64,000 nucleotides of DNA from Auricularia sp. M13 (taxonomy: Eukaryota > Basidiomycota > Agaricomycetes > Auriculariales > Auriculariaceae): NCBI GenBank assembly GCA_037042915.1, contig CM073196.1, positions 434,001 through 498,000 on the forward strand, in the 5' to 3' direction. The notes under the pieces are model-generated. The model did no database searches, had not been told where the DNA came from, and worked only from the letters and a program-made list of their open reading frames with translations. The position numbers and the translations under genes are program-made. This document shows positions 3,001 through 63,756 of this stretch, in pieces; position 1 is the first letter of the stretch, and each line of letters starts with the position of its first letter.

Positions 3001-3343
3001 TAAACTTCCAGTCTTCATTCGGGCAGAGGACGGTGCTACTCTGGAATTTCAAGTGGAAGCCTACGTCGTGCCCAAGATGGCGGTGAACATCCTACTGGGG
3101 GAAGACTGGCATCTCAATTACGAGCTGCAAGTCCTCCGGAACGTAACCAAAGGCACTCGCGTCAAGATTAGCGACTCTGGTTATCATTTCGCGGCGTCCT
3201 CTGTGTCCAAAACCAACCCGGACGCCTCGCCGGTCCTCTCTGCTTCTGCTCTCGCGCAGCTTTACCGTCACGGATCCTCGCGCAGCTTTCTTCATCCGCG
3301 CCAAGAGTCATCGCAGGGCCAAAGCTGCGCGCCACCGCCGTAA
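5..3343 (+). mobile_element. Gag and aspartic protease part of the Ty3/Gypsy element
   Basis: A single frame of about 1110 codons that probably begins upstream of the window. The middle is glycine- and aspartate-rich and low in complexity (about 840-1080). It is followed by a Gag-like helical region (about 1130-1650), a CX2CX4HX4C zinc knuckle near 2020-2060, acidic linkers, and a retroviral-type aspartic protease with the motif LDSGAS near 2866-2884. Protease joined to Gag rather than to RT is seen in several fungal Ty3 elements. Treated as part of a fossil element. Confidence 0.85.
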
Positions 3344-3437
3344 ACGCGCGTCAGGCAATGGGGAGCTTCGAGCGTACGAAGATACCATCATCAGCGCTAA
3401 CTGCACCGCTCTCGTCGACTACGCTAGCGAGCTCCCA

Positions 3438-6400: not shown

Positions 6401-7589
6401 CACGACATGCGATATCTGTCAGAAGAATAAATCAGATACCAATACGAAGCACGGACTGCTGCGTTCGCACAACATACCCTCGCTGCCATACGAGCGCATC
6501 TCGTTCGACCTCATCACCGGGTTGCCTTGGTCCGGGCTTTACAACGCCATATTAGTCGTCGTCGACCTTTGCTCCAAGCACGCCCAATTCATACCTACGG
6601 ATACCGGACTGGATACCGAGGGTTTCGCCCGGTTATTCATTCGGGAAGTAGTCTGTCGATTCGGTCTACCCCAAGAGTTCATTGCTGATAGAGACGGCCG
6701 TTGGCTCTCTAATTTCTTCGAGGCCGTCACCAAGCAGATGGGCATACATATGCTATTGTCTTCGGCGCACCATCCACAGCACGACGGCCAAACCGAACGA
6801 ACAAATCGCACACTCGAGACGATGCTCAGGCATTACGTGGCATCAGATCCCAAGGACTGGGACAAATGGCTGCCGTCCTTGGAATTCTCGTACAACACGA
6901 CAGTCCATAAGTCGACCGCCCTCTCGCCGTATTCCGTGCTGTACGGGTTCCAGCCGCGCAGCGCTATCGACCTATTTTCTCCCGGCCGCAAGGGCGACAT
7001 CCCGCGCCATTTTACAGCTCACAAAGACGCTGACAACTTTCTTCTTGCTATGCAGAATCATCGTCACGCGGGCGCGCGACGCCATCGCGGCCGCTCAACA
7101 CCGCCAAGCGCAGGCGTACAACGCAGGACGGCACGACTTCGCGCTGGAACCTGGCCAACTGGTATTACTCAAGCCGCATTCGCTTGAGCTCGTGGAAACG
7201 CAAGGCGAGGGCCGGAAGTTGCTTCAACGCGCGTTCGGCCCCTTCACGATACAAGAGCGCGTTAGCGACGCACGTACCGCGTGAATCTGCCCTCAAGTTT
7301 CCCTATGTCAAACGTTATACATGCCAGCCACCTCAAGAAGTACTTTCCGTCGCCAAAACACTTCGGGCATCGAGCTAGCCTACCGAACCCACGATGGGAA
7401 GACCTCGTGGAGGAAGTCTACGAAGTGGAGAAGATCGTGGCCCACCGTCGAAATCGCTCGCGCAGGCAGATGGAATACCTCACTCGCTGGGTGGGGTACG
7501 GTCCAGAACACGACAGCTGGCTCACGTCTCGAGAACTGAGAGACGCGCCGGCTATCCTGATCGACTATCGGCGGGCCCACGGCATCTAG
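3438..7589 (+). pseudogene. Pol region of the Ty3/Gypsy element (RT, RNase H, integrase, chromodomain), broken
   Basis: Reverse transcriptase spans about 4100-4800, with the fingers motif YRKLN, palm motif LDALAGFNQM and the catalytic box YIDDIVVYS. RNase H lies at about 4930-5480 (YTDASDEALGA). Integrase has an HHCC zinc finger at about 6300-6430 and a D,D-35-E core at about 6500-6850. A chromodomain (hydrophobic and aromatic residues around YLTRWVGYG) spans about 7410-7570 and marks the element as a chromovirus; such domains are known to target integration to particular chromatin. The region is spread over several frames, with roughly four or five breaks, and cannot be a functional polyprotein as it stands. 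Confidence 0.88.
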
Positions 7590-17185: not shown

Positions 17186-18064
17186 ATGGGTGCCTACAAC
17201 GACGTTCACGAGCAGCTCTGCGAGAAGCCCGAGCTCCCTAAGGGCGACTTCACGGGCAAGACGGTTCTCGTCACCGGTGCGAACGTCGGACTGGGAAAGG
17301 AAGCTGTAAGGCACTTCGTGCGTCTTAACGCCGCGCGCGTCATCATGGCCGTGAGGTCTGTGTCCAAGGGAGAGGCTGCCCGAGCTGAGATACTCGCCAC
17401 GCCTGCCCTCGCCGGCAAGAATGCAACCGTCCTGGTCTGGCAGGTCGACCTCTCGTCGTACGCCAGCGTGCAAGCCTTCGCGGAACGCGCATGTACCGAG
17501 GTCGACCGTGTGGACGTCGCGGTGCTCAACGCCGGCGTCGCGATGTACACATTCGAGCTGGCCGAACGGGACGAGATGACGATCACCGTCAACGTTGTCA
17601 GCACCATCCTCCTCGCCGTGCTCCTCCTCCCCACGCTGCGACGCACCGCGCAGTCTTTCCGGACGGTCCCTGTTATCTCCGTCGTAGGGAGCGGCATCCA
17701 CAACTACGCCTCGTTCCCCGAGCAGTCCGCAGACAACATCTTCGCCGCGCTGAACGACCCGGCGCGCGCGCGCATGTCTGCCCGGTACACCGTCTCCAAG
17801 CTCGTCCAGCTCTTCGTCGTGCGCGAGCTCGCTGCGCTCGTCAAGGACTCGCAGCCGTTCGTCGTGGTCAATACGCTCAACCCCGGACTGTGCGGGACGG
17901 AGCTCGTCAGGGACGCCTCGGGACTCTATACGCTACAGGTCAAGGTGGCGAGGAGCCTCATGGGGTGGACTGCCGAGGAGGGCAGCCGGACGCTTGTCCA
18001 TGCGGCAAGCGCGGGAGTGGAAAGCCACGGCGCATATCTCAGTGCAGCCAAGATCAAACCGTGA
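17186..18064 (+). CDS. Short-chain dehydrogenase/reductase (SDR)
   Basis: Intronless, 292 aa. The classical SDR landmarks are present: cofactor loop TGANVGLG (residues 30-37), NAG (115-117) in strand 4, a serine in ISVVGSG (about 165-169) and the catalytic YTVSK (Tyr201, Lys205). A single ORF of normal length for the family. It resembles the retinol-dehydrogenase/WW-oxidoreductase-like SDRs common in fungi, which use NAD(P)(H) to oxidise or reduce an alcohol or ketone; the substrate cannot be read from the sequence. No signal peptide or membrane segment is obvious. The lack of introns is unlike most neighbours but common for fungal SDRs. Confidence 0.93.
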   Translation: MGAYNDVHEQLCEKPELPKGDFTGKTVLVTGANVGLGKEAVRHFVRLNAARVIMAVRSVSKGEAARAEILATPALAGKNATVLVWQVDLSSYASVQAFAERACTEVDRVDVAVLNAGVAMYTFELAERDEMTITVNVVSTILLAVLLLPTLRRTAQSFRTVPVISVVGSGIHNYASFPEQSADNIFAALNDPARARMSARYTVSKLVQLFVVRELAALVKDSQPFVVVNTLNPGLCGTELVRDASGLYTLQVKVARSLMGWTAEEGSRTLVHAASAGVESHGAYLSAAKIKP

Positions 18065-36638: not shown

Positions 36639-37952
36639 TCATACAAGACTGCGCATTTGATAAGGTGGGGCAAAGTGCGAATAATCAGCCCCTACGCCTT
36701 CGTCAGTCAGTATCATGGGCGCGGTCTCGCGAGACGCACCCATGGCTTGTATATGCAGTAGTTTTTTGCCGCACAAGGACGGCATGGAATCGGTAGCTTT
36801 TAAGAGGCGCTGAGTCGCAAGATCCCAAGGGCCGGACGACGCGATCAGGACCTTGTGCAGTGCAGCCCACTTTGGCTGCGAGAGGGTAGCATCGAGAGCC
36901 CGCCACGATGGCGCGTGACCGAACATATCATCGAGGATTGACGCCTCTTGACTCTCGAAAGATATAGCGAATGTGCGAAGCGATGTGGGGCAGGGTGTGA
37001 CCTCTAGCGACAGGACTGCGGCGAGCGCGGACACTATCGTGCCTTCCTCATTGGTTGGATTGATGAACGGAAGGAGGACCGATAGTTGGATAGCCTCCAG
37101 CTGGGGAAGACAGCGGAAGATATCCGCCAGTCCGTAAGCTTCGAAGCCTGCGAAGAAGATCAGCAGAGCAATGATACCGAAGGACTCGAGCGCACCCGTA
37201 TTTCCCAACTGAACGAGCTCGATCATGCGCACCTGCGCCAGGTAAGGAGCCAGAGAGGCGGTCGGCAACGCCTGGACGCGCTGCAGGAACGCTTCATCCA
37301 AGGCCGGCACTCCTTCAATCTCGAGCGCCGACAGCTGAATTTCGTGATAGAAGACCCATATGAGCATCTTCTCCAGAAGTCGCAGGTCAGTGTCCACGTT
37401 CAGTGTGATGAGGCATTGGCCAGGAAGTTGAATGACTGGGTGTGGGAGCTGTGATTGCGATGACATCTGCCAATCCTGCACCCGCATGAGCGTCGACCCT
37501 CCGACCTTGAGCTCGGACAGCGACGGAAAGCACGAGATTAGGACAGTGAATTTCTGCATCGACCTTAGGAAGACATCATAAAGAGCCAGCGAGCGAATCC
37601 TGTCGAATTTCGTCGCGCAGCCCAATCCCGAGAGAACGAGCTTCGAGACGCGGTTTTCTGATTCCAAGTACTGAATCATCCCTGATTCTACGAGTCCACC
37701 GTTGCAGACTAGAGTTGTACAGTAATCAGTGAGCAGATGGGCATGATGCTGCATCATTGCCCGAAACTTGTCGCTGTCAATTGTGATTAAGGAGAAGAGG
37801 AGATGTAAAGCGCGGGGACGTAGACCTCTACAAAGGGCGCTGCACGCGAGGAGGAAGGGCGGATCGTCGGCGAGGTAGTCCATGATCTGCTCTATGAGCT
37901 CTATCGGAAGCCGCGGTTGCCATGGGAGAGCGATATCGACGAGTGTAGCCAT
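36639..37952 (-). CDS. F-box domain protein
   Basis: Intronless, minus strand, 437 aa from the ATG at 37952. Residues about 10-55 match an F-box (LPIELIEQIMDYLADDPPFL then CSALCRGLRPRALHLLF), which binds Skp1 in SCF ubiquitin ligases. The rest is leucine-rich with scattered repeats such as FPSLSELKVGGS and LPQLEAIQLSVLLPF, as in the large Agaricomycete F-box/LRR-like families that choose substrates. The gene lies just upstream of and in the same direction as the unresolved gene ending at 35503; their borders are close and could even be one transcript. Confidence 0.85.
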   Translation of the reverse strand: MATLVDIALPWQPRLPIELIEQIMDYLADDPPFLLACSALCRGLRPRALHLLFSLITIDSDKFRAMMQHHAHLLTDYCTTLVCNGGLVESGMIQYLESENRVSKLVLSGLGCATKFDRIRSLALYDVFLRSMQKFTVLISCFPSLSELKVGGSTLMRVQDWQMSSQSQLPHPVIQLPGQCLITLNVDTDLRLLEKMLIWVFYHEIQLSALEIEGVPALDEAFLQRVQALPTASLAPYLAQVRMIELVQLGNTGALESFGIIALLIFFAGFEAYGLADIFRCLPQLEAIQLSVLLPFINPTNEEGTIVSALAAVLSLEVTPCPTSLRTFAISFESQEASILDDMFGHAPSWRALDATLSQPKWAALHKVLIASSGPWDLATQRLLKATDSMPSLCGKKLLHIQAMGASRETAPMILTDEGVGADYSHFAPPYQMRSLV

Positions 37953-38424
37953 TGACAGAAACAGAAAGAGTATATGCAACTCCCACAGATGCTAGACAAG
38001 ATAGACTGCCAGAGGGTGACTTGGTAGGTGAGCGGATGAGGACAAGGTGCGCTGATTGCCGGCCCGGAGATAACTGGTCGCCGCTCAGCCTTATGTATCT
38101 GTTCGCAAGCGAGCACCGTACACCGTCTCCCTCGTCATCCTTGCCAACGACGTCGATGCAGTTCAGCTGCACTGACAATCCACTATCGTAAACCTGTGCG
38201 CCCGTGGTGTATTTGAGCCTCCTTTACGCTTTTCATGTCACAAGCAGCAACTTCGCAGTTGCTTTCGCCTGGCCATTTCCACCTGACACGGGAAATGGAT
38301 TGCGACAGGATACAAATTCATATCCGTGTGCTTTGATATAGCGGCGCTTTCGAATATCTGCTCCTACTGGCGGCACTCTAGAAGGTCTTGAACCAGTCAC
38401 TTCGGCGATCTGACCTGAACGGAA
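37953..38424. other. Intergenic upstream of the F-box gene
   Basis: Promoter side of the minus-strand F-box gene. No coding feature seen before the duplicated unit begins near 38425. Confidence 0.45.
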
Positions 38425-48449: not shown

Positions 48450-48881
48450 CTAACGATGAGCTCTGAGCCACCCCGACGGCTTCGGTGGGGCTCGGCGCAA
48501 GTCTTGCAGCGGCACTGTGTACAGAGAGCCGCCTATGTCGACGATGGCTAGTAGCTCTCCCTGCAATCCGGTTCGTTATACTCGCGCGAGTCGCAGGATA
48601 ATGGATGTACGTACGCTGGGCCCGTATCCGCTTGCCATGCGTTTGAAGAATCCATCAAACGTTCTCTCAGGCTGGTCGGCAAACTTCGCGATGATTGGGT
48701 CGTTCACCTAGGGAGAAAAGGGTGATATGATGAGGCCTTTTTTCATTTGCAAGTCGAATTCCATGGCATACTTGGAACGCGTTCTGCATGGAATAAGAGA
48801 GTACACATCAGCATGGAACACGTTGGGAGGGCGGGGAAGCCAGATTGTTCTCACCTTCTGTGGAGCCTGAACGAAGGACAT
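48450..48881 (-). CDS. Tiny four-exon gene, microexon family member 1
   Basis: Minus strand, exons 48855-48881 (9 codons), 48772-48783 (12-nt microexon, NAFQ), 48615-48707, 48450-48560; 80 aa. All introns are phase 0 with GT-AG ends. The third exon contains NDPIIAKF and ends GPS; the fourth begins GELLAIVDIGG and ends with PLQDLRRAPPKP. The paralogues at 50713-51130 and 60780-61173 have the same four exons, with an exact 12-nt exon 2 in each, which is why I accept so short a gene. No signal peptide, membrane helix or cysteine pattern. Family not recognised; probably a small cytosolic or nuclear protein. Confidence 0.72.
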
Positions 48882-50712
48882 CGTACGCAAAGCGAAAGCT
48901 GGGAGTGGCGACGGGCTGGTGCGACTGTGCGATATTGAACCGATCACAGCTTCACCAGCCTTTTGTACTCTTGCGATAGTGTGTTAGCATCTCAGCCCGT
49001 CTACACCTCGGCTTGATCTCCCGGTTTTGCGGACCAATGTCGCAAGCGCCAAAACGGACCAATCTCAAGACCGATGCCGAAGAACCTTGTATTACTACCC
49101 TTGCGATGACATCGACTGTGCTATCCCGCTTCGTTTCGATGCACCCGGTACGCACACGCGCGCGCGGTATTCAGACACGTTGTCCGCCGAATGAGTGGAG
49201 GAGAAAATCGGTAAAGCAGGCAGGTTAAAGCTCAGGCGCTGATGGGAGCGACATCGTTCATATCCGAGACTAAGAGGTGCTCAGCTCAGTCTGAGCAATG
49301 GGAGCGTGTGATGTTTTGCAGCAGGGATTTAGTTCATGGCAACCTCGTGGCCTTGTGCACTACTTCGGATGCGGTTGCGTAACAACGTGGCCACTGACCG
49401 GGCGCTCGGTTTAGCTCAGGACTTCTACCTAAAGCGGTCGAATGAACGAGGAAAGGCAGACGCAGTACCTGCACCGGTCTCAGCTGATGTGCTCTCCAAA
49501 TCTCGGTGGCTCCTGCCGCCGCGGTTAGCTGATGCATGCCGGTACCACGGATGAGTGTAGGCTGTGATCACACGGTACTTTGAAGCGAAGATCAACTGAG
49601 GCGGCGAGTCGTTTCAGCTGGTACTAGACGCGCTGACGGTGACATACTAGTAGAGCACGTCCGACTCATCGGGAATATCGAGACAGAATCTCGACCTCAG
49701 GTGAATATGTACCTATCTCGACGCGCAGCACTGATATCTCAGAATTAAGTGACAGAATCGCCGCCGCAGCGGGCAGCGCGAGCGCGACATGGGCACGGCG
49801 CGGAGCCCGCGCCGTTCCTGCTGCGTCCCGGAAATCGGCTCGAACCGGCCCGGGCCCGCCTCTTCCTGCCGTCGTGACTCGTCAACTTCTCGAGCTGGGC
49901 GATGAGGACGCGTCTGCGGCCGCATCGACCAGCACAGTACAGCTGCCGGAGCCGTTTCCCAGCACTCACTTTCATGCTTCCGGGGGCTCGCGTTGTCATC
50001 AGGGACCCGCCGCCGCCGGCGCTTCTGCGTCCGCACCGATCATGGTGCGGATGTGGCCCATCGCGACGCCTTGGCCGGCAACAGTCTGTTTCCTTGCCAG
50101 CGAGCACCGACGTCAAGTGCGCTGCTGCAGTCAGTAGCTTTGAATCAAAACTGTTCATGGCTACGTCCCATTATAACAAACTGTCCTTTCAGTTACTCCT
50201 CCCTGGGCCTGTCTGGAGCGTCGGGTGCTTGTGAAAGAGGTATTCGGAGCTCGATTCAGCTTTATTGGCATTCCGATACCCTGTCAACAGTTTGACGTGG
50301 CTGACTACATGACTCGAAGTCGGTAGGTACACTAATCCGGAACTGTTTGGAAATCTCACGCACAGCTTCCAGAATGCCGCTTTCCCCTCTCGCTTTCGTC
50401 CTGACCACGTGACATCGTTGTCTCGTCTGCTATAGCTACTGGGCGTTCCGTCCTGCGGAGTCTAACTCATCCGGAGCTGGCGATACGAGGAACTCGCAGT
50501 CGTGCACTCTCTGGCGAATGTGATACAGCAAGGGACTCGCAGACAGCTTGCGTCGTATCGATTTGTGCGCTGAAAGCTCCGTCCCGACTTGCGCGCTCCT
50601 CATCTTCCGCCAAGTGAAAATCCCAAGCGAAACCAGGCTGCTCTTCTCATAGTCGACCTCTATTAGTTCACACGCTGGGATTTTTCTGCTGTTCGTGTAC
50701 TCGCAATCCGAT
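48882..50712. other. Intergenic, about 1.8 kb
   Basis: Contains the Atg15-derived fragment at 49834-50100; otherwise only short ORFs without support. Confidence 0.5.
49834..50100 (+). pseudogene. Degenerate fragment of the Atg15 5' coding region
   Basis: Resembles 53326-53600, the start of the Atg15 gene 3.5 kb to the right. Shared words include CGGCTCGNACCGGCCCG, CTGCCGTCGT, GGACGCGTCTGCGG, TCGACCAGCAC and GACCCGCCGCCG, in the same order. The start codon is not kept and the frame is lost, so this is a partial duplicated relic. Confidence 0.6.
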
Positions 50713-51130
50713 CTAACGGTGGAACCTCCGGCGCGACGACGCTCCAGGGGGGCGGCGCACGTCTTGCAGCCGCAGCGTGTGGAAAGAGTCGGCAATCTTG
50801 ACAATGGCTACAATTTCTCCCTGCACCCCGTCAGACTCAAACGTCGCATGGCATATTTGGCGATGCGCACATTGTGTCCCAAACGACTTTCTTGGTAGAT
50901 TCCATTGTAATCTACTCCCTGGAGCCTGGCGATGACCGGATCGTTGCGCTATATAAAGCGCTGTTATACCGAGCAATTTCGAGTTACGGTATGATGATAG
51001 GCTCACTCTGAAACTGTCCTGTATAGCACGATTTCCTGATCAGCACGACATTGTCACTGAGATATCGAAATTTACGAACATGTTGAGAGGATTGGGCGGT
51101 CTGGCTGTCACATTGCTGATTGCGAGACAT
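50713..51130 (-). CDS. Tiny four-exon gene, microexon family member 2
   Basis: Minus strand, exons 51080-51130 (17 codons), 51007-51018 (12-nt microexon, DSFR), 50871-50948, 50713-50820; 82 aa. Exon 3 carries RNDPVIARLQG; exon 4 begins GEIVAIVKIAD and ends in LRLQDVRRPPG plus a basic tail (SSRRRFHR). Intron positions and phase are identical to member 1, and the last exon aligns without gaps over its first 24 residues. Only about half the residues are identical, so it is an old copy whose splice pattern has been kept. A plus-strand ORF (51080-51538) overlaps its 5' end and is treated as a shadow. Confidence 0.72.
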
Positions 51131-52137
51131 TGTCGGGCAGAGGCTGATGGAACTGCTGTTGGGAGTTGGGCGACCACACCCGTCAACCTTTTTGTACCGC
51201 CTCCAATTGCACATCGGCGTCTCAGGCTTGTCTCAGCTATGGCTCATCTCGACCACCTTGGTTTCCAGCCAGTGCACCATCCAGGCGCCTATACTGTACC
51301 ATTGTCGATCCCAATTCGCATTCTGCCAAAGGTAGCTTATCGCGACCCTGCAGATACCCTCAACAGGTCTAGTCTACTTATTCCGTCCGTACGCGCGCGC
51401 GGCAATCGGAACCTGTGTCCGCAGAATGCCACTGGCGAGCGCCCTGGACGTCCAAATAGGCATCCCAGGGTTCAGGCGCCGCGGAGATACGACATCCCGA
51501 GAGCTCAGACGCTCAGTTTGCAACGGGAGACTGTATAATGTTAGTCTGGAGCCGGGTTTCCGGTGTTTGATGTACCGCAGCGTTGTAGCTGGCGGCACAG
51601 CACTCCGAGTCCAGCATTGTGAGCGCTCGGTTGCAATGAGGAGTTCCGATCCATACTCAAAGCAGCCATCTCAATCGGAATAGGCATCTACCGTACCCTC
51701 GCTTTCTGTATCTCAGCCCCAGTTGATCATGATGTGCTTTTCCAGTCTCCGGCTCCAGAAGCTGTAGAAAGAACATGCAATCTGGGTTCATGCGGCCTAA
51801 GCTGATGCACAAGGGCACGAATGAAGGCTACAGAAGATCTCTATTCTCTATCAGACGCGCAAAAGTGCCAGTGGTGCATTGGTTACTATTGCCACAAAGA
51901 AACACACTAGGAACGGCCTCAGGCTTGAAACCCAGACTTATACAGTAACGGTAATGATCTCGAAGTCCAGGCGAGGATACTCAGTACTACGACGGCGCAT
52001 GGGAGTCTCGTCCGTCGCGCAGTTCGAAAAGTTCTTGAAGGTGCCGTACAGTAATTCAGAAACCGCGATTCCCAACGACACAAATATTATCCTCCATTAA
52101 CACCAAGTTGACTAACTAAGTACAACTAAACATTCAG
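51131..52137. other. Intergenic, about 1 kb
   Basis: Promoter side of small-gene member 2 and 3' side of the proline-repeat gene. ORFs at 51374-51683 on both strands have no motif. Confidence 0.45.
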
Positions 52138-52661
52138 TCAGACCCGGGGCGGCTTGGGAGGCGTATTCGGAGCCGTGCCGGGCGGTTTCTCTGGCGTACC
52201 GGAACCGGTACCGAGAGGCTTGAGGCCTGGCGGGGTTATGGGAGTCGCGACGGGCGGTTTGGGACCTGGCGGGGTGACGATTGTTTCCACAGGCGGTTTC
52301 GGGCCTGGCGGAGTGACGATTGTTTCGACGGGGGGCTTGGGTCCTGGCGGGGTGACGATGGTCTCGACGGGAGGTTTGGGACCAGGCGGGGTGACGATAG
52401 TCTCTACAGGCGGCTTGGGACCTGGAGGCGTGACTATGGTCTCAATCGGAGGCTTCGGGCCCGGCGGGGTGACGATAGTCACAGGTGGCTTGGGACCTGG
52501 AGGCGTAATAGCAGTCTCGCCGAGTGCACCCAGGCCGTTCTGCACAGAGCGTGAGCCGCAATACGAGATGCGAGATGCACAGGTGGACGTACGCTGTCCA
52601 GCGGGGCGGCCGTCACGGTGGCGAGGCTCGTAGCGAGGAGGACGAACGAGAGGAACTGCAT
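52138..52661 (-). CDS. Small secreted proline-repeat protein
   Basis: Minus strand, two exons: 52593-52661 and 52138-52539; 156 aa. A clear signal peptide (MQFLSFVLLATSLATVTAA) is followed by seven to eight copies of a 13-residue repeat, IVTPPGPKPPVET, encoded by 39-bp DNA repeats between about 52210 and 52510. No catalytic motif. The repeat resembles extensin or collagen-like cell-wall linkers and may form an extended polyproline rod in the wall or at the hyphal surface. The copy number is likely to vary between strains because the DNA repeats are nearly identical. Confidence 0.75.
52210..52510. repeat. 39-bp coding minisatellite
   Basis: Seven to eight in-frame units around GGCGGGGTGACGATNGT, within the proline-repeat gene. 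Differences are mostly at third codon positions. Confidence 0.85.
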
Positions 52662-53381
52662 CGTGCGAGTGCGATGTGTCGGGGCGGTATTAGCGGGATG
52701 AGGATGAGGAAAACGAGAAGGAGCGCGAGGGGAAAGCGTAGCCAGACCTTTTATGATCTTCGGGAAGGAGCAGGATATTACTTACGTTGTTCGCAGCCGC
52801 GTCGCCGCGACGCATGGAACGACTTCCCATGCTGTCAGACTTGCATGCATCACTGCGGCGCAGGATTGGGCGAATCCCATGACTCTTTGTCTAACTGCGG
52901 ACGCAGACGATATTTTAAGTAAGGTGAGAATCGCGGGATTGATGGAGGGAACAAGAGCACGCCGCTGTGCTGGTAGAATCGACGGCGGTGGTGGGACGAG
53001 GAGACAAGCGGTAAATTTTTGATTCTCCATGCGCCCATTGTCGTCCGACGCATCGTTTGGCCAGTAGAGATGCTTGCACATTACTTTCAGATGAAGACGA
53101 AGGGGTGCCGCGGCCGGCATATCGCCATCGAGGGCTGATGTCGCGAACAGGCGGTAGCTGGACCACGCTTGCTAGGGCCATCGTTTGCCATGATTTCGCG
53201 GCGCAGTGAGGACTCAATGCGAGCTGTACCAGTGAAGGTTTTTTTAGAAGTAAGGTAGGAATGACCAAAGACACCGTGGATTTTGAACCAGAAAAATTCA
53301 GGAGGAAGAGAAGCGAGTCGTCGGCTCGGACCGGCCCGCGAACAGCATCCGTGCCTGCTGCCGTCGTCATCGAGCCGGACG
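52662..53381. other. Divergent intergenic region
   Basis: About 720 bp between the minus-strand proline-repeat gene and plus-strand Atg15, so it should contain both promoters. No distinct element recognised. Confidence 0.45.
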
Positions 53382-55324
53382 ATGTGGACGCGTCTGCGGG
53401 CGGCCTTCGCGCTCGCCGGCGTCCTCGACCAGCACCCCTTTCAACCGCCAGCCCCAGCTGAAGCGCCGGCGCCCAACACGCTCACATTCACGCTCCGCCA
53501 CGAGCACGCGCAATCGCCCGACGGTCGCGTCGTCTTCACCGACCCGCCGCCGTTGCTGCAGCCCGCGTCGTTCACACTAAAGACGCGAACTGTCTCGGCG
53601 CCGCGGCCGGCGTCGATGGAGCTCTTCCACCGCGCGCGCCGGCGTCCGTCTTCGCAGTCGATACCGTGGGAGCCGGGCGAGGTGGCGGGGCCGGACGTCG
53701 GGTCGCGCGGGACGCTGCTCGAGCTGGCCAAGATGACGAACAACGCGTACCTGAAGCCGAACGAGACCGGCTGGTACGACCTCGGCGACCACTGGTCCGT
53801 CGGCTACCCCTTCGGCTGGGAGCCCGACCAGGACGGCTTCCGCGGCCACGTCTTCGCCTCCGAGGACAACTCGACCGTCATCCTGAGCATTAAAGGCACG
53901 AGCATGGGCGTGCTCGGCGGCGGCGGCCCGACGACCAAGAAGGACAAGATTAACGACAATTTGCTCTTTAGCTGCTGCTGTGCGCGCGTCGACTGGACGT
54001 GGACGACGGTGTGTGGGTGCTATGGCGGCGGATGGAAGTGCGACCGCACGTGTCTGGAGCAGAGCCTCAACGACGACTCGCTGTTCTACCCGCTCGGCAC
54101 GAATCTGTACAGCAACTTGACCTACATGTACCCCCACGCGAACATCTGGCTCACTGGACATTCCCTCGGCGGCGCGTTGGCGGCGCTCCTGGGGTCTACA
54201 TTCGGCATGCCTGTTGTTGTGAGTCCGTCCATCGCGCTCTTCTTCAGGCCCAGCTGATACCTGTGGCAGGCATTCGAGTCTCCCGGCGACGTCCTCCCCG
54301 CCACCCGATTGCATCTCCCCACACCAGTGAGTATCCCCCGATCGAAGCTTCATTCAATTTCATCCCCATCGCCACTTCCTTCGACGTCTGTCTTCTCGGC
54401 CCAAACAGCTTCTTGTACTCCTGCTTCCCTTCCATCCATTCCATGCTCTTCCGGTTCAACCAGAAACTTGCACCCTTTCCTTACACTCCACCCCACCCAT
54501 CCTACACGCTTCCGCCATCCGCACCTTCGCTGACCCTCCCCTCCCAGCCCTCCCTCTCGCACATCACCCACGTCTTCCACACGGCGGACCCCATAGCAAT
54601 GGGCACCTGCACGGGCGTGCTCTCGAGCTGCGCGCTGGCCGGCTACGCGATGGAGAGCCGGTGCCACCTCGGCTCCAAGATCGTGTACGACACTGTCGGC
54701 GAGCTCGGCTGGGCGGTAGATATTCGGACGCATGGGATTGTTACTGTTATTGAGAAGGTGAGTCTGGGTGTGTGGGTGAGGGTTGGAGGTGGAGGTGGGG
54801 ATGGGATGGCAGCGGTAGCCTGCCCTGAATGGCGACGTTCGTCCTGCGCGCCTCCCTCCCCGCGCCTCCAATTTTTCATCGGCGCGCTCACTGACGCACG
54901 TCCCGCCAGATGCTCGCGAAGAGCTGGACGGAGATGGGCGGCAAGACGGACTTTGGGCCCGACGGCGCGCCGCCGGGCGTGCTGGAGGACGAGGACTGCT
55001 CGGCTGCGGTAAGTGGTCATTCCATCTATCATTCTCCCCCGCCCTCTACACATTTGATGCATTTCGCGTCCACGATTTGTGCCTTTCGCACTCACAACTT
55101 GTGCTCCCCGCGCTCACACGTTGTGCCGCCCACGCTCACGCTATGCGCCCTTAACGCTCACATTTTGCGCCCTCGACGCTCACAATGTCTGTTTTTCACG
55201 CTCCGAGGCTGACGCGCGAACACAGGAGTGCTACAGCTGGGAGTTCGGCGAGTTTAAGGACAAGGAGTCGTCGGCGGCGCGGCTTCAACTGGGTCTGCCT
55301 ATGTCGGCGCCGCTGCGCGCATGA
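53382..55324 (+). CDS. ATG15: Autophagic lipase Atg15
   Basis: Five exons: 53382-54218, 54270-54326, 54548-54757, 54910-55008, 55226-55324; 433 aa. The lipase elbow GHSLGG places the nucleophile at Ser261, and the family landmarks are [15 protein letters not shown], a cysteine cluster ([17 protein letters not shown]), [21 protein letters not shown] and a C-terminal [10 protein letters not shown]. Atg15 is a phospholipase that reaches the vacuole through the endosomal pathway and breaks down autophagic and multivesicular membranes. The first 16 residues give only a short hydrophobic signal-anchor. The protein is shorter than some fungal homologues and lacks a long C-terminal tail. Introns 2 and 4 are about 220 nt, longer than usual here; intron 4 carries a minisatellite. 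Confidence 0.88.
55065..55204 (+). repeat. Degenerate minisatellite inside the last Atg15 intron
   Basis: Five to six diverged units of about 22 bp built on CGCTCACANNTTGTGCGCCC. The array makes up most of the intron and explains its length. Confidence 0.7.
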
Positions 55325-58037
55325 AGGCGAAGGCGCGGCTCGTGGGCGCAAACCTGGGCCAACTCGTTGCGCAGTTGCAGCGGTAGAGTTGCACCGCCGT
55401 TGCAGCGGCAGACTTGCGCCGGCGTTTCTTGGATAGAGAGTGCGGAGAGTGCGTGGATGCATGTCCTGTTGTTGATTTCTCTTTGGAGGACACACGGTGC
55501 GTGGAGGACACACGGTGCGTGGTGCGTTTGGTCTCCGCGCAGAATATTTGTGCGTGCGCGAGGATGAGGTTGAGGCTGACGTGGCGCAGTAGATACAGTT
55601 ACAGTATGCATTGTTTGGACGCGCCTCGCGGATGCACATCGTATCATGATTATGAATGAGCCTTTTGCATTGCATTTTCGCATTCAAACGCTCCTGCTAG
55701 TGTTCTGTTCAATGTTCGCCATGTGTTGGACTTGGGGCGCACACCGACCCAGGTGCATCATGTGGAAACTCGGTCGCTCGCCGTCTACGCCATCCTGGTC
55801 GGGGAACATAGCGTATGTTCACATAGTCGTGATGGATTGCACGGGGACTGACGCAGCGTAATGAATATTACAGTAGCAGATTGCCAAGTCAGTTTATTGC
55901 CAAAACTGGATTCCGGCGACACGAACAATGAACGCTCGGTAGCGACTGCTTGCCGCCGTTGCCTCATGGAGACCGCCCGCGCCCGCCTCCACAACCATGC
56001 GTCGCTGCGGGCTGAGTCCGCCGTCCGGACGTTGCGCAGACTTTCGACCTTCCGACGTGATGGACGCCGCGTCTCCGCGTGAGCGGAATCTCGTCTCCTC
56101 TCCCGAGTTCTGCGCACGGCTACCCTGCCGCTGAACAAGGTCTGCTGCTGTTGACACGAATGCTGTGGTCCTGAGATCATCTTCGCGGCGCGTCGTTGCT
56201 GGTTACTCTGGCCACGACCACGAAGTTCCCGGGCGGCTGGACGGGGTCTGCTCGAGACGTTTGCATTTAGTATTGGTGTGATGCACCGTACTCTGTCCGC
56301 GTGGACTTGCGACCGTCCCCTTATGCGTCGGCTTGACGCTGGAGCGCTCGCACGTCCCAGGAGTGCTGGGTCCGGTAGCTCACATGCTGCAACTGGTGGT
56401 GCATGCTGTTGTTGCCACGCGCCATCGGTATCCGTACGGGCTCGCATCGCCGCGCTTCTAGAGGACGTGCTCCGAATCTGCTTGCTACGTTGCCCCGCAG
56501 AAGTCCTGGATCACCGTGACTTGCTTGCGTCGAGTCGCTGGCCGAGATCACTTCCATTTCTTGCGAAGTCCGAAGCTGCAGGTCCATGTGCTGTGCTTTG
56601 TGCACCTTCACGACTGCCCTGACCGGAGCTCTCACAACGGCGAGGCTGTGCGTGCTGCTGGCCGGAGGACGGCGAGAATAGGCTGTCTACTGCGAAAGAG
56701 CTTTCATCTGCTCTTGTTCTGGGTCTTCTGGATGCGCTACATCGGACCAGTCTGGTACCTGGACCTGCAGCAGAGCATTCCAGATTGATCTACATATTGC
56801 AACTCGTAGTGCTGCCCACGTGCAGGCGAAACGCCCGGATATTTTCGTATTCATAACCTCGACTCGGAGCGCCGCAAAACATGGTCATCATATCATGGCC
56901 GGGCGCCCGAGGGGAACTCGGACTGGCCTGCGGTGTCTAAACGGGCCACATTCGTGCATCTGCTCATTTGCTAGTCTGCGGGTGTCCGGCCGTGCTGTAC
57001 GACCTGGCCATCGAGTCCGCACCCTGATTTGCATCCACCCGCTCCGAGTCCGGGCATTTGACTGATTATGGTACATTCGAGTTCCCCATCTCAGGCGTCT
57101 CCCAACAACGCTGGTGTCGTCCTTCCCAGCGTACGAGGAGGCTTTGTACCTACGCGGCGGTAGGGTGAGGATACTCTCGCCGTTGTTCGGTTCCCGCGTG
57201 GCTATCGCTGTTCATCTTCAGATCAGTGCACGGCATATCAAGAGGCGCGCGAATTATGAGACGCTATACATAGCACACCCGACAGTCGAGATCACACCAT
57301 GCAAGCCTCAATCCCTGGCCGGTGTCAAATTTTTTCCCCTATCCGCACAGGCGAAATGAGATCTGCGTATCCCACAAGGGCGGTTCCCTCTTCTCTCAAT
57401 TTGTGCATCTTCCTGTTGGCAATAGGTCCTGTGTGTGCGCGTGCTGTGTATGCACGCACGCACACACATTACTGCCTCTCGGGTGTAGCAGGAGCCCGGA
57501 GTCAATCACGGGCAATGTTAAGATGTCGGCTCGATGTTTGCGGCAAGCTAACGCCGTGTCGCTCGGGCGGCGGGCGGTAACTTTGCTTAAGCCGCAGTGT
57601 CCGGGACGGTGGACACGGAGAAAGGGTGTCAAAAGAAGCAATCGCTGCATGAACGGCTTCTGTTTTACTAGGTGGTGACGTCTGTCTGTTTGCTGAACAT
57701 GTACAGCCCTTCCAGGGATGATTGTCACGACGAGCTCCGGCGCCTACAGCTGACGACTTTCTGTTCGAGGCCCATTACGGACCGTCGCGCCTCATCTGAG
57801 CTAAGGACGCAGCTCCGTGGGCTGTTGCATGACTCTCTTCCAGAGGTTTTTCTCACACCACTGCGGGAAATGAACGGGACATTACCTGCATCTCTATCAC
57901 CTTCGCATACTCATGGGGTTAAGACTCTCGTCCACATAGTGTAGTGCGAATTGTAGTCTGACGAAGTGGACACTGGACTCTGATGTCCGCGGTAAACGTA
58001 TCAATTGGGAGAATCGATCGGGCCCTGCCCTTCATCC
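55325..58037. other. Gene-poor stretch, about 2.7 kb
   Basis: No gene supported. A 220-codon minus ORF (55785-56447) and several plus ORFs exist but are rich in Arg/Ala/Ser, as expected by chance in this GC-rich DNA, and show no motif. Confidence 0.45.
55483..55520 (+). repeat. Two direct copies of an 18-bp unit
   Basis: GAGGACACACGGTGCGTG occurs twice in direct succession, followed by a third partial copy of its end. Confidence 0.8.
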
Positions 58038-58474
58038 TTAGTTCCTGACCGGCGTGAGCTCGATCAAGTACACGTTCTCCCTCGTCCCGTTGAAATTGAC
58101 CGTCACGATGATGTTGTTGCCCTAAAACCCGCACATTTGTCTCCAAGGAGAATAGGACAGCTCTCCCACAATCCCACTCACCTCAATCCTGATGGCCTCC
58201 ACGGTGCCCGATGGGCCGCTTGGTTGAGCAACTCTGCGAACGCGGCTCCCGATCTGCGGGGCCGTGATGAGTGGTGACCCTACGCGGTGCTCCGCGACTC
58301 ACAGCTATGTCGGGGTCCTGCAGGTATAGGAGAGCAGTGAAGTTAGCACCCACCTAAGACTTTTTCCTATGCAAATGACCTACGCGAGGAGGCAGGCGTG
58401 GCGCAGGGATCTGATAACCAGTATGAGGTCCCTCTGTCAGTTTCGTATGACGACACGCGCACCGAGCGAGACAT
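58038..58474 (-). CDS. Tiny gene, distant member of the small-gene family, start unresolved
   Basis: Minus strand. The last two exons are clear: 58182-58253 (24 codons, IGSRVRRVAQPSGPS...) and 58038-58121 (27 codons, GNNIIVTVNFNG then VYLIELTPVRN). Before them a short exon ends at 58303 with DPDIA; it is either a 15-nt microexon (58303-58317) or part of a longer exon. The final exon follows the pattern of the other members: Gly at the phase-0 start, a hydrophobic VxV strand, a Gly, then a second strand and a basic end. The likely start is the ATG at 58474, but the first exon junction is not settled. Confidence 0.5.
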
Positions 58475-60779
58475 CTGTGGGGGAACTTGAGGGGAGATGG
58501 GAAAACTGGATCTGAAGTGTGAAACCGTTGCTTGTGTTTTATAGCTGAGCTACCGGAGAACGCGCGGCCGAAGCAATTGCTACTCCTTGTCAATCATTCA
58601 ATCACCGTATTGGCGGAACTACAAACATCTTCTCATAGCCCCAGAAGACATGGCGTTAAGCTGCTATCTACCCCGAAAACTGAGTCCCAAGCTGTTGCCC
58701 GCACAGTCCTGTTATACGTGGTCAGATCATCGCATCACGTGACATCTAATCATTTCGAATGTAATGTTATATTATAAGACCTTTTCTCGCTCATTTGATA
58801 ACCAGAGGCCGGTGTGAGAGTCTAGCTCGAAGCTCGAAGCCCAGCCTTCCGTCATCGGTTTTATTATTGATGATCTTCCAGAGCTAGTTCATCACACCGC
58901 TTTCGCCTGACGATCACCGCCTGACCAGGAATGGCTGGACTTAGTGCAATACCATACACCTCCGCAGGTCAGTGTATGGTATGGTAGAGATTCTTTTAGA
59001 CTCACAACACAATGTATCAGAATTCCCGCCTGGAGGTGCGTTTACAACATTCTTTATTCCCACTTGTGGGCTGTGTGGGGTGCAGTCCTCTCACCGAATT
59101 CATATACACAGGAACCCTTGTAACTCCCTGAGTTGGCAAGTGCCCCAGACTAACTCCCTGTCTTCCATATAAAACCAGTTAGCGAGGGCACTGTGCCTTC
59201 TATGCAATCTTCGTGTGGAACTTAAGCAGTAAACATCGCCTACGAACCGCCTTGACGAACCATCACCATCGTCGCTGTGTTTACCGCACTGTGTCCTCGA
59301 GGTCAACCTCTTTATAAGCTCTATTCACCCTCGGAATGCGTTCCGGATACCAGCCTCAGGTTGTTAGCGGGTCACCAGCGTCCTATGGAACCTCAGAAAG
59401 ACTGAAGAACACTTCGTGTTTCCTTTTTCAATTCTAGAACTGGCCCCCATAATGTGGTCGTGGTTTCCTCCGCAGATGCGGTCAACATGGATATAGAGTG
59501 TAAATTCCCTTGCTGTACCTTCTCGCGGTGGGAATACGACCGTATCGTCAATTCCTACGCCGGGTTCCATGGTGCGGGACGATTGCTGCCGCGGATTTCA
59601 TGAAGCGGCCTTAAGAACAGAATGCACACACGTGGACGAAACAGCGACTCAATTGCGTTCGGCAGAATTCTCCTTGACTTGGTTCCTTGGCTTTCAATGA
59701 AACCCTCATCGTGCAAGCTCTTTGTATAGGAATCTCCCAGCAATTATACAGCTAACCGCCTCGCGAGGGAGCAGAGAGCAAGTCGACGAGCACAGAACTC
59801 CGGCGCGGCGACATTCCCACACATTATCTACCGTGTTGCATTCCTCTCTGGCGAAGAAACTCAGAAAGAAAGCACAAACTGTATGCTCGCATAGAATACG
59901 CTGTGGGTAGGCGCACGAAGTCACAAAACAAACGCAGTTCCTGGACTGAGTCGCAAGTGGTAAAAAGCCTACATTCCGGTGCGATCGCGCGCCTATTCAC
60001 ATATAACTCAGGAGAGGCGGCGTTGCTTCTTCCCGACTGTGGAAGACTCGCTTGAGCTGAGACCTCATGGCCGCTCGCGGTGTAGGGTCTGTTTGCGACG
60101 CGTAGGTCTAATCGTTCCATGACGCGCGATGGACTAGGACATCCAGATGTGGCGCCAGCTCCACGGCCGGTAAAGCAGGTTTCCGAGGCCAAGCTTCATC
60201 GCCTGAGAAACGGTGCATCAATAACGCCGGGGGTCCGAAGCAGCAGCTTCGCACTGCAAATGGCAGGCTGTTCGTTGCTTCTTCTGGATCGGAAGCACTT
60301 GTCGAAACCGAGCGCTACGTTCGACGGCCACAATGTCGTTGCGAGGAATCCCGGCTCCACATCAACACACTGGTTCGCTTTGATCGAGAGCGTCTCTTGC
60401 GCGCGCGTTGGCATCGGGAAGGCATGTTTCCGCGGCGCCTGAGCTCCGGCATGCTCATCAGCCTGTCTAGGGTATTTGGCATTCCGCGGAGACATTCATG
60501 ATTCAAGGGTTAGGCGCTATTATGCAGTGTGATACTGACGAGGTAGACTACGACTATGGCAAGCAATCCCAGGGTCGCAGGAGGTTTGGCGGTATCGGCG
60601 CTTAGAACATTGGCCCGAAAACCAGGAGACGACCAGACGAGGTAGACGCAGGCTGAGGCACTACCGTGCCACCGAAAGTGCCACCGCCAAAGTATAAAAG
60701 TTGGTGAAGCATTATACGGAACTCTATCAAGTCCCAGCTGCAGTCTCACCAACCTACCTCCAGCTCCTCATTCTCAATC
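58475..60779. other. Gene-poor stretch, about 2.3 kb
   Basis: Nothing firmly coding. A minus ORF at 59364-59570 encodes a plausible strand pattern (DDTVVFPPREG) but has no exon context I can defend. Confidence 0.4.
60693..60698 (+). promoter_or_regulatory. TATA box of small-gene member 3
   Basis: TATAAA 82 bp before the start codon at 60780; a second pyrimidine-rich stretch leads into the ATG. Confidence 0.6.
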
Positions 60780-61173
60780 ATGCCACCATTCTGGACACCG
60801 AACGTTGCGCAACCAGTGCAGCAGGTTCGAGCATTCTCCCATGTAATCTCATGGCCGACCTTTGCTGACAATGCCTTCGACATGCAGAGCAGCTTTCGTG
60901 TACGCCAAAACACCGCATGAATTGGCACGAGTTGACAATGTCGTTATAGCCTAACGAGCCGGTCATCGCAAGCTTTCCCAACGGGGAGTTCCATGCGATT
61001 TTCCAGGGAATAGCAGGCATGGGACCCAGTGTGCGCCAAGTCCTGAGTACCCTGCGTTGCTGAATATTAACGAGACACAGGGAGAAATCCTAGCTATCGT
61101 TAACGTAGGCGGTACTCCTTGCACACTACCACTGCAAGCCATCCGACGGGCGCCGAGGAGGCATCACTTCTGA
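60780..61173 (+). CDS. Tiny four-exon gene, microexon family member 3
   Basis: Plus strand, exons 60780-60824 (15 codons), 60888-60899 (12-nt microexon, SSFR), 60950-61030, 61081-61173; 76 aa. Exon 3 begins PNEPVIASF and ends GPS; exon 4 begins GEILAIVNVGGTP and ends LPLQAIRRAPRRHHF. It has the same exon number, phase and microexon length as members 1 and 2 but the opposite orientation. The last intron ends ACACAG, the acceptor implied by the Gly-Glu start shared by all three. A TATA box stands 82 bp upstream, which supports an expressed gene. Confidence 0.75.
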
Positions 61174-61232
61174 GAGAGACGGAGAAACAGTAGCGCATGT
61201 ATTATGTATCGCGCCTTGTGTGTTAGCATAAT

Positions 61233-61480
61233 TTATGTATTTGTTCTCTTCTGAGCGATGAGCGGTCGCGTAGCATGTCGAGCACCCACGTCAAAAAGCA
61301 CTAGAACGGCATTTCCAGACTGCAGCAGAGCTTCTACGCGGATGCGCCCGACCTGGGCGCTGGTGGTTATTTCGGCAGGGCTCCAAGTTCGCGGATGAAG
61401 TACGTAGCCCGTAGAAGTCGCTGACTCGACGCAAACACACACAAAGATACCCCAAGGAAGTACAGGAAGTCCTAAATAAG
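61233..61480 (-). CDS. Partial model: further member of the small-gene family
   Basis: Minus strand. The last exon, 61233-61319, encodes 28 residues (SGNAVLVLFDVG then RPLIAQKRTNT) after a CTGCAG acceptor and has the same strand-Gly-strand-basic pattern and nearly the same length as the other last exons. The preceding exon probably includes AEITTSAQ, comparable to PELAQS in member 4. Upstream exons could not be traced. Confidence 0.4.
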
Positions 61481-62735
61481 CATGCTGAAACGGGCGCCCG
61501 GATGCGGGAACTAAAAGCAGGTCGCCTGAGTGAGATGTCGCGGTAAACACGCAGTTCGAGGAGCGCCTTTCCAGTGCATTCGGTGTTCCTGAACTAGCAG
61601 GGCTTGTGTATAAGGGATTCCGAGGCTCAGCCGCGCAAGCGATGCCATCAGACAAGCAAAGACCCAATTTGACGGCCTGTCGCGTTAAGACGGCCGAGCA
61701 GTCCAATTTTGCGTCCCTCTGGCTGAGCTCGACAGCGCTGGTATGAGTGATAAGAGCCTAGGATATCCTAGTCGTAGATACTGCACGTATATTTATTAAT
61801 AGAAGGTTGCAGCAGATATAATTGCGACCTGACTGCGAGGGCAAGAAGAACGGCTCGTGTAATGGGGTAAAATATGCCTCCACAGCCGAATCATGAAGAC
61901 ACCACGTGTCATCGTGTGTCACAGCGGTCGGATGGCACTTGAATATGAGCGCCCGGATCAAGAACTGGGCGGTAGGAGTCGGAGGAGTAGGGAGAGGACC
62001 AAAGTCGCGTCGGGATTTAAAACCAATAAGCCTCCGAGTCAAACCATGATCCTCGACAAGCTCCATTCGCCACACGGCCATCCGATATAGGCGAATAGCT
62101 ATCATTGACCCATGGCACGGGCATGGCGTATATTAACCACTGTTTTCGTCGCTATAAATGACCGCTGGTCCGTCGAACGTCGGCGCTATGAGGTGCTGCC
62201 TCAGGATTCTAGACACGCAATGCTTGGGCGCTTGCTGCCTAATCATGCGTGCATGCCCTGGAGAAGGGTGCCATTTTCCGCGGCGTTTGTTTCTGGCTCA
62301 CTCTGTCCGTGTGTTGGCATCTGTTCGAACAACATACCATCTGTTCATCCCGCTCGTTCGCTGGACTCATCGGGAGCTGTACTGGCCTGAATTCAGGACG
62401 AATTTATGGTGCATGGAATGCAACCGGTAATCCCAGCATCGATTTGCGCCGTGTCTAGTAATGGCGCATGCTTGAGTCAACTGCGGTATCAATAACATAG
62501 CGCTCGTTTGACAGGTCTTCCTGCTCCAGGATCCCGACCATCCTCGACCTCTTCACGTTATTTCGTCAGGCGCGACTGCGCCGCCATCTGGGTTCGCGAG
62601 TCATCGTTCATTTTCCGGGGCGACGCTCTCCCGACCCTGCAATACCGAGCCTGCCTTTAAATACGCACGCGCGTGGCTCGGAAACCTTATACTCAGACAC
62701 ACACATCGGACCAGTAGCGTTCCCTTTGTTTCGAT
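61481..62735. other. Intergenic, about 1.2 kb
   Basis: May include the unresolved 5' exons of the minus-strand small gene. No other coding signal. Confidence 0.4.
62656..62663 (+). promoter_or_regulatory. TATA-like element of small-gene member 4
   Basis: TTTAAATA 73 bp before the start codon at 62736. Confidence 0.45.
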
Positions 62736-63215
62736 ATGCCCGCCCCGTGCTATTCGCCTGTGGTAAGCTTCAAGACATACGCGACATTCCGCACGGAATA
62801 CTCACAGTATTCGTCCTAGACCACGACGTCGAACACGACGGCCAACGCGAATTCGAGTTTGAAGCGCGACGCGAATACGAGGCCGCCGGCGCTGACTGCT
62901 CAAGTCGCCCAAGGACAATTGGTCAGCTCTCTGCAAGTCGGGCTCATATCGCGTGCTGACTGTCGCCTACAGCCCAATCTCAAGGTATTGCCACACGCAT
63001 GAAGAAGTGCAGAATGGCTAATGTTTGCAGGACGGGGATACTGTCATCATTCAAGGCAGGGTCGTAGGACGTCCTGAGCTTGCTCAGTCGGTGAGCTCCT
63101 TGCCCTACACAGGCAGCTCGCTTCTGACACCTGTTCATAGGGCCATTACTTTGTTAATGTCAACGTCCAGGGCACGAATTATGTGTTCCCTGTCGATAAA
63201 TTGCGCCGGAGTTGA
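62736..63215 (+). CDS. Tiny four-exon gene, distant member 4 of the small-gene family
   Basis: Plus strand, exons 62736-62762, 62820-62984, 63031-63090, 63141-63215; 108 aa. All introns are phase 0, with strong donors GTAAGC, GTATTG and GTGAGC. Exon 3 (DGDTVIIQGRVVGRPELAQS) and exon 4 (GHYFVNVNVQGT, YVFPVDKLRRS) match exons 3 and 4 of members 1-3 in phase and pattern: Gly start, VNV strand, Gly-Thr turn, Pro-Val strand, LRR end. Instead of a 12-nt microexon it has a 55-codon exon 2, Thr/Asn-rich at first. The first exon and its acceptor (TCCTAG rather than the nearer CTCACAG) are chosen because the nearer site gives a stop. Confidence 0.62.
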
Positions 63216-63504
63216 GCCTGACGCTGCAAAGTTTCAGCAGGCAGAGGATATGCACCACTAGAACCCGGATAGTGTCTCCAACACTGCAGGACGCTCTTCT
63301 GTCACACTGTATCCGTATTCGTAGTTTTCAATGTGAATTGCGCTCTATTGTAGTAGCTACAGATACACAGACTCAATGGCAGGACCACAAATACACTAGC
63401 TTATGAGATACACGAGTTCCGGAAGCGTAGTAAGTACCCTGATTTGGAAGTCCTTGATTTCTTAGGCACTCAGAGGTTGAGCTGGTGGTACTTGATTGAC
63501 GGCG
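63216..63504. other. Convergent intergenic region
   Basis: 3' side of small-gene member 4. No feature recognised. Confidence 0.4.
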
Positions 63505-63756
63505 CTATGTAGTATAGTAATGCTGAACGATACTTGCTGTCTTCACACAACCTGCAGAGCTTTCGCTGGAATTTGATGCACACAACCGTGAACGTTGACG
63601 AACGCGACTTGTACCTAGTAGTATAATTGTATCCACGAAAAAAAGCACGTGGATTACTCGCGTACGCACCCCGTCCCGATAGACGACGTTTTCGACGCGG
63701 GCACGAAACCGGCCTTCCTCAAGACTCACGATGACCGTTGCTTCAGGCTGCGCGGA
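63505..63756 (-). CDS. Possible partial member of the small-gene family at the window edge
   Basis: Minus strand. An exon opening at 63756 after a TTACAG acceptor encodes SAQPEATVIVSLEEG then RARVENVVYRDG; a GTGCGT donor follows 87 nt in, or the frame runs on to a stop at 63505. The strand-Gly-strand-Arg pattern resembles the family's last exon, but similarity is weak and the 5' part may extend beyond 63900. Confidence 0.3.
   Translation of the reverse strand, partial: SAQPEATVIVSLEEGRFRARVENVVYRDGVRTRVIHVLFFVDTIILLGTSRVRQRSRLCASNSSESSAGCVKTASIVQHYYTT

Follow-up and report, generated by a model that had tools for sequence, protein, structure and literature searches.

A clustered family of very small, microexon-bearing genes in Auricularia sp. 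M13, each possibly encoding a single SH3-like beta-barrel

Small, fast-evolving proteins built partly from very small symmetric exons have been described in schistosomes as the products of micro-exon genes (MEGs); all MEG products carry a signal peptide and the genes appear restricted to flatworms (PMC4350168). The bicycle genes of aphids keep their exon plan and phase while their sequence diverges, and gene structure is the better signal of their homology. Their internal exons are almost all phase 2, and a gene has no fewer than 5 exons, with a mean of about 17 (PMC9168663). In filamentous fungi, functional microexons were previously undescribed according to the abstract of a study of Xlr2, a transcription factor gene of Trichoderma virens that contains one (PMC11121469). 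Here we describe a family of very small, intron-dense genes on contig C4 (CM073196.1) of the basidiomycete Auricularia sp. M13, which came to light in C4:434001-498000, the stretch of 64,000 nucleotides (nt) that we call the window (C4 coordinate = window position + 434000). Like the MEGs, these genes encode small, fast-evolving proteins built partly from very small symmetric exons; unlike them, they show no visible leader, contain no more than one to three small exons each and are likely to encode a folded barrel. As in the bicycle genes, exon plan and phase are held despite divergence of sequence, but here the introns are phase 0 and the genes have 4-5 exons. The Xlr2 microexon, as its abstract presents it, is one exon of one gene, whereas here a whole family is concerned.

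The family comprises at least 12, probably 13, loci spread over 105 kb (C4:482.4-587.9 kb), six of them within the window and the other seven over the 90 kb that follow it. Twelve are the stronger loci (G1, G2, G3, G4, G5, L3, L503, L505, L525, L529, L540 and L587) and one, G7, is weaker. We favour, with a confidence slightly better than even, a multigene family of very small intron-dense genes, each of which would encode one small SH3-like beta-barrel of the KOW/Tudor type, acting as an intracellular binder of peptides or nucleic acids. The gene family was not found in the libraries searched; its fold is probably a known one, and its micro-exon plan is unusual and strongly conserved.

All introns are phase 0 in 12 of the 13 gene models, and every internal exon is symmetric (a multiple of three, phase 0) except in L505. 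In most models the two putative barrel exons, of 60-111 nt, account for the greater part of the coding sequence; the intact proteins are 67-91 amino acids long. Of the 12 stronger loci, 10 have a small exon ahead of the barrel exons whose length is exactly 12 nt, compared with 11.6% of 32364 AG sites. The exceptions are G5 (15 nt) and L505 (10 nt), and G7 has 12 or 15 nt; a count of 11 in 13 arises only if the G7 acceptor is set three bases inside its exon. The microexon was no part of any search, and the 12-nt form is present in six of the seven loci outside the window.

The first-pass annotation of the window had named four genes with an estimated 76-108 codons, four exons each and phase-0 introns. 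Rebuilt base by base, all four were found where they had been placed, every intron in their models is phase 0, and their predicted proteins have 80, 82, 76 and 91 amino acids. Four exons hold for three of them. G1 (48450-48881, minus strand; 80 amino acids) has exons at 48881-48855, 48783-48772 (the 12-nt microexon, NAFQ), 48707-48615 and 48560-48450 (27/12/93/111 nt), introns of 71, 64 and 54 nt, and a TATA-like TACAAA at 48962-48967, 86 bases before the ATG. G2 (50713-51130, minus strand; 82 amino acids) has exons at 51130-51080, 51018-51007 (microexon DSFR), 50948-50871 and 50820-50713 (51/12/78/108 nt), introns of 61, 58 and 50 nt, and TACAAA at 51191-51196, 66 bases before the ATG. G3 (60780-61173, plus strand; 76 amino acids) follows the same plan, with exons at 60780-60824, 60888-60899 (microexon SSFR), 60950-61030 and 61081-61173 (45/12/81/93 nt), introns of 63, 50 and 50 nt, and TATAAA at 60693-60698, 87 bases before the ATG. 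The fourth, G4 (62736-63215, plus strand; 91 amino acids), is best modelled with five exons, at 62736-62762, 62820-62921, 62973-62984 (microexon PNLK), 63031-63090 and 63141-63215 (27/102/12/60/75 nt); TTTAAATA at 62656-62663, 80 bases before its ATG, is not a strict TATA core.

Three partial relatives had also been proposed. The one at 58038-58474 (minus strand), G5, is a complete five-exon gene model of 69 amino acids, with exons at 58474-58463 (MSRS), 58410-58384, 58317-58303 (the 15-nt small exon, DPDIA), 58253-58182 and 58121-58038, and TATAAA at 58538-58543, 69 bases before the ATG. The one at 63505-63756 (minus strand) is modelled as G7, a probable four-exon member of 77 amino acids at 63928-63543, with exons at 63928-63869, 63810-63796 (15 nt, or 12 nt by an alternative donor), 63756-63670 and 63614-63543. 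The third, at 61233-61480 (minus strand), was dropped; the better of its two alternative models scored 9.8 bits, which is within noise.

Beyond the window lie L503 (C4:503687-503250), L505 (C4:506004-505593), L525 (C4:525475-525092) and L540 (C4:540531-540151) on the minus strand, and L3 (C4:522119-522527), L529 (C4:528981-529408) and L587 (C4:587570-587939) on the plus strand. Together with the window genes they fall into three groups. Group I (G1, G2, G3 and L3, with L587 as a bridge) has a first exon of 27-51 nt, a microexon of the form x[SAT]F[QRTK], the two barrel exons and, in most members, a basic C-terminus. In group II (L525 and L540) exon 1 reads MPxxAVYQPVQQ and the microexon PTVV. 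Group III (L503, L505 and L529, plus G5 by exon plan) has a first exon of only MSFS or MSRS, followed by an exon of 27-36 nt, the small exon and then the barrel. G4 matches group III in exon number, with a second exon that is longer, and its microexon PNLK is similar to ADLK and PDLQ in that group.

The loci were sought by protein searches of the whole genome (52.1 Mb in 14 contigs) and by a scan in which any two open exons that a GT-AG intron of roughly 42-85 nt could join were paired and scored with profiles built on the last two exons. The whole-genome search with the last exon of G1 as query matched, besides G1, the genes G3 and G2 and a single new locus, which lies about 24 kb past the window. 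Further whole-genome searches with other members gave matches confined to C4 482-588 kb, barring one weak match on C1 (E 0.36), which was judged spurious (the frame in question faces long open frames on the opposite strand); with 12 of the 13 loci used as queries (all but G2), no credible relative was found elsewhere in the organism's own genome. L540 came from the genome search with L525, and L503, L505 and L529 from subsequent profile rounds. L525 had initially been picked by eye, at 6.5 bits, for its likeness to G5; in the leave-one-out analysis afterwards it scored 46.9 bits. L587 was detected at 27.1 bits by a profile built without it. The scan covered 264 kb of C4, and outside 482-588 kb nothing rose above noise. 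The concern that the last-exon pattern might occur at random frequency elsewhere finds no support in some 158 kb of C4 sequence from outside the cluster, in which no locus exceeded noise (best 12.2 bits, with one of the profiles). Two last-exon look-alikes, at C4:473303 and C4:516845, lacked the remaining exons and were dropped.

Leave-one-out profiles, each built from the other 11 stronger loci, recovered 11 of the 12 at 26.7-46.9 bits (in the window, G1 at 35.5, G2 at 33.6, G3 at 41.2 and G5 at 26.7). The best reversed-sequence control over these 12 profiles reached 11.1 bits, and the best shuffled or reversed control over the other scanning profiles reached 12.7 bits (shuffled). G4 scored just 12.3 bits, at the level of noise, so that its membership rests on architecture and not on profile score; G7, at 13.8 bits, is just above noise.

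The gene models carry splice signals throughout. All 44 modelled introns are GT-AG, with G at +5 in 41 (background 27.5%), a pyrimidine at -3 in 42 (background 45%) and a CTRAY branch motif near the intron end in 21 (background 8.6%). These counts are somewhat inflated, as many of the upstream borders (exon 1 and microexon) were set by eye; the last introns came from the profile score or from the first reading. A TATA core lies 66-93 bases upstream of the ATG in 11 of the 13 loci compared with 2.5% of 8201 ATGs, by a pattern defined after some members had been seen, and such TATA promoters suggest that expression may be regulated. Codon positions 1, 2 and 3 differ in 36, 32 and 62% of codons within group I, the third nearly twice the others; the corresponding fractions are 0.23, 0.30 and 0.45 in group II and 0.46, 0.36 and 0.52 in group III. 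Ten pairs fall within a group, and in all eight of them that were tested the residues resemble each other more than they would with the same changes placed at random; the weakest of these gave P 0.041 for identity and 0.001 for similarity. Among the tested paralogue pairs the proteins are thus under purifying selection, and together the splice, promoter and selection evidence indicates that these loci are genes.

DNA similarity between loci, in a same-orientation search, is mostly exonic with short extensions, apart from a single repeat, about 300 bases long, that lies close to two of them. One copy follows L503 and the other precedes L529, each at no more than 1.5 kb from the gene and in a different relative position, and the copies are 71% identical; the repeat may be the remnant of another element.

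Pfam gave no match above cut-off for any of the 13 loci, whether to KOW, Tudor or other SH3-like models or to any other family. NCBIfam 20 likewise gave none above its curated cut-offs among the 12 loci scanned (all but G7; cut-offs were displayed for 10). Two profile searches of about 5.8 billion proteins, with 65 and 248 candidates, returned no homologous protein at E <= 10; this type of search relies on shared 5-residue words and such genes are easily mis-annotated, so that absence elsewhere is not shown. As a control, a search with a lipase encoded in the window gave 1097 relatives in the same collection, and the Agaricomycetes names on most of the 120 listed show that fungi are represented in it. 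The titles of the matches listed from the open-licence PMC literature included no such microexon, SH3-like, orphan or lineage-specific fungal family. The proposal of a sequence-divergent family with a conserved exon architecture is borne out, and neither the libraries nor the open-licence papers searched yielded a described counterpart.

Among solved structures, the best match of the 12-member profile was the KOW domain of NusG (PDB 1nz9) at E 0.00098, and the two align across the barrel in length and in a core of the form G-x-x-V-R ... G-T-[VI]-x-x-I ... V-x-V. A profile of groups II and III matched 22 chains, of which 17 were CarS (2kss), NusG, dynactin CAP-Gly or PsaE, all of which we take to be SH3-like barrels; the alignments cover all or part of the barrel. 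The best forward E values were 0.016-0.032, and the SH3-like matches other than that to 1nz9 span 0.018-1.9. Reversed, however, the same profile matched IF-1, an OB barrel, at E 0.012. As this control is as good as the forward matches, those of groups II and III say little beyond a small beta-barrel; similarity to SH3-like barrels other than NusG is at control level, and only the NusG match of the 12-member profile stands above it. The second of two AlphaFold2 models, which is of low confidence and not evidence on its own, orders its strands as a pair of hairpins and then a turn leading to the final strand; the exon border falls between the hairpins, an order to be expected of an SH3-like barrel. 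Compared with the known SH3-like barrels, the present family has no Pfam match above cut-off, the barrel would be nearly the whole protein, and the gene is split between the hairpins.

Besides the reversed control, several results weigh against the explanation that we favour. Below NusG, the list for the 12-member profile mixes ribosomal L19 and L24, which are presumably SH3-like, with antibody chains and other unrelated proteins, and the closest Pfam match overall was the OB-type TOBE_2, for L503, at 19.8 bits against a cut-off of 21. The profile of group I with its bridge members matched no solved structure, and the sole match of the first four-member profile was an unrelated oxidoreductase at E 1.2. 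Both AlphaFold2 models, made from intron-retaining window sequences, were poor (mean predicted local distance difference test, pLDDT, of 43.7 and 50.2), and structure searches with these low-confidence, retained-intron models gave no significant match. Groups II and III show less of an excess at third codon positions than group I. The microexon of L505, 10 nt long at C4:505844-505835 (minus strand), breaks the frame, while the rest of that locus is well conserved; L505 is possibly a dead copy or a case of unusual splicing, and we keep it in the family without counting it as intact. Finally, the hhalign comparison of groups II and III with group I gives 93.9% when L587 and G4 are included, and falls to 36.8% with L587 alone and 0.7% with strict group I. 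The link between the groups thus rests on the bridging members, and the rest is carried by the common exon plan, microexon and promoter. We consider some kind of small beta-barrel highly likely, and an SH3-like fold somewhat more probable than its alternatives combined.

The sequence evidence was also weighed against four other explanations. The nearest is a small beta-barrel of another kind (an OB-fold, an Hfq/Sm-like fold or a new five-strand barrel) that would bind RNA or DNA. The reversed-profile control makes its case, since it shows that a barrel-like composition is enough to reach E 0.012, in that case against an OB protein, as does the near-miss of L503 to TOBE_2; on the other side stand the 17 of 22 forward chains of groups II and III from four SH3-like families and the KOW domain as best match of the 12-member profile. 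We consider such a barrel possible, if unlikely. It is improbable, in our judgement, that the loci form a secreted, host-directed effector family or a family for self/non-self recognition. Fast divergence with a fixed exon plan does recall the schistosome MEGs and aphid bicycle genes, and the cluster interval contains, at C4:555-557 kb, a NACHT-TPR (STAND-type) frame. Yet a signal peptide, the hallmark of MEGs and secreted effectors, was seen in none of the 13 model N-termini, nor any hydrophobic leader (by inspection, no predictor run), and selection among the tested paralogue pairs is purifying and not diversifying.

The remaining two explanations question whether these are working genes at all. 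Decaying remnants of a single older gene, multiplied by duplication and mostly unexpressed, would account for the frame-breaking microexon of L505, the weakness of G7 and the unsupported candidate at 61233-61480, and there are transposon-related frames nearby; but 12 of the 13 loci retain open frames and splice signals, 11 of 13 a TATA core, and the exons are constrained at the protein level, which makes this very improbable. That the exons are due to chance, a pattern imposed on random sequence, has in its favour that they are short, that the splice consensus is loose, that some borders were set by eye and that L525 was first noticed at noise level. Against it, 11 of the 12 leave-one-out recoveries lie well above control, the splice, promoter and codon signals are independent, and the microexon appeared in loci where none was searched for; we regard chance as next to negligible.

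Under the SH3-like reading, the last two exons would encode the barrel, one giving the beta1-beta2 hairpin and the next the beta3-beta5 part, and a short, variable N-terminal tail would be assembled from two or three phase-0 exons, usually including the four-codon microexon. Net charge is +1 to +5 in all 13 models (the L505 value coming from a frame-broken reading); this, with the lack of a visible secretion signal, makes an intracellular module binding peptide or nucleic acid the likeliest role. Divergent loops and tails, and the basic C-termini of group I, could then direct the individual copies to different partners. As all internal exons outside L505 are multiples of three and in phase 0, skipping of the small exons could vary the tail and leave the barrel intact. 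A bolder version, which we put forward as speculative and rather unlikely, is a fungal micro-exon gene family with a fixed barrel and a splice-variable tail, whose dozen TATA-driven loci would form a repertoire of intracellular binders, either regulatory or recognising invading elements or non-self.

Other features share the region. Inside the cluster interval lies the lipase (class 3; ATG15-like by the names of some matches; 53283-55012, plus strand), whose closest named relatives among the matches listed are from Exidia glandulosa (76%) and Auriculariales sp. (72%), followed by Trametes (65%); on this one gene, the genome probably belongs with Auriculariales and not with Polyporales. Also in the interval are a KDZ-associated CxC6 frame, frames whose matches to C2H2 zinc fingers fall below cut-off, and the NACHT and TPR frame (STAND-type, NLR-like; C4:555091-557373, plus strand). 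A 39-base tandem repeat of 7.4 copies (52217-52500) lies downstream of a minus-strand frame that starts at 52661 with MQFLSFVLLATSLATVTAAP and perhaps encodes a secreted proline-rich repeat protein with an intron. Elsewhere in the window, frames at 5-7187 (plus strand) that match reverse transcriptase, integrase and, below cut-off, gag aspartyl protease domains are read here as a putative Ty3/gypsy-type long terminal repeat retrotransposon; a short-chain dehydrogenase frame lies at 17186-18064 (plus strand), and a 446-amino-acid frame with an F-box-like match below cut-off at 36639-37979 (minus strand).

Genes of 70-90 codons in four or five pieces, with an exon of 12 bases, are likely to be missed by automatic annotation. 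In this family the exon plan and splice signals hold while the sequence drifts, to the point that nearby members of different groups barely match by sequence. The family makes it testable whether structure-conserved, sequence-variable families such as the bicycle genes and MEGs have fungal counterparts. If confirmed, it would offer a natural test bed for microexon splicing and for partner change in small barrels, and mushrooms may hold whole gene families that are invisible to protein databases.

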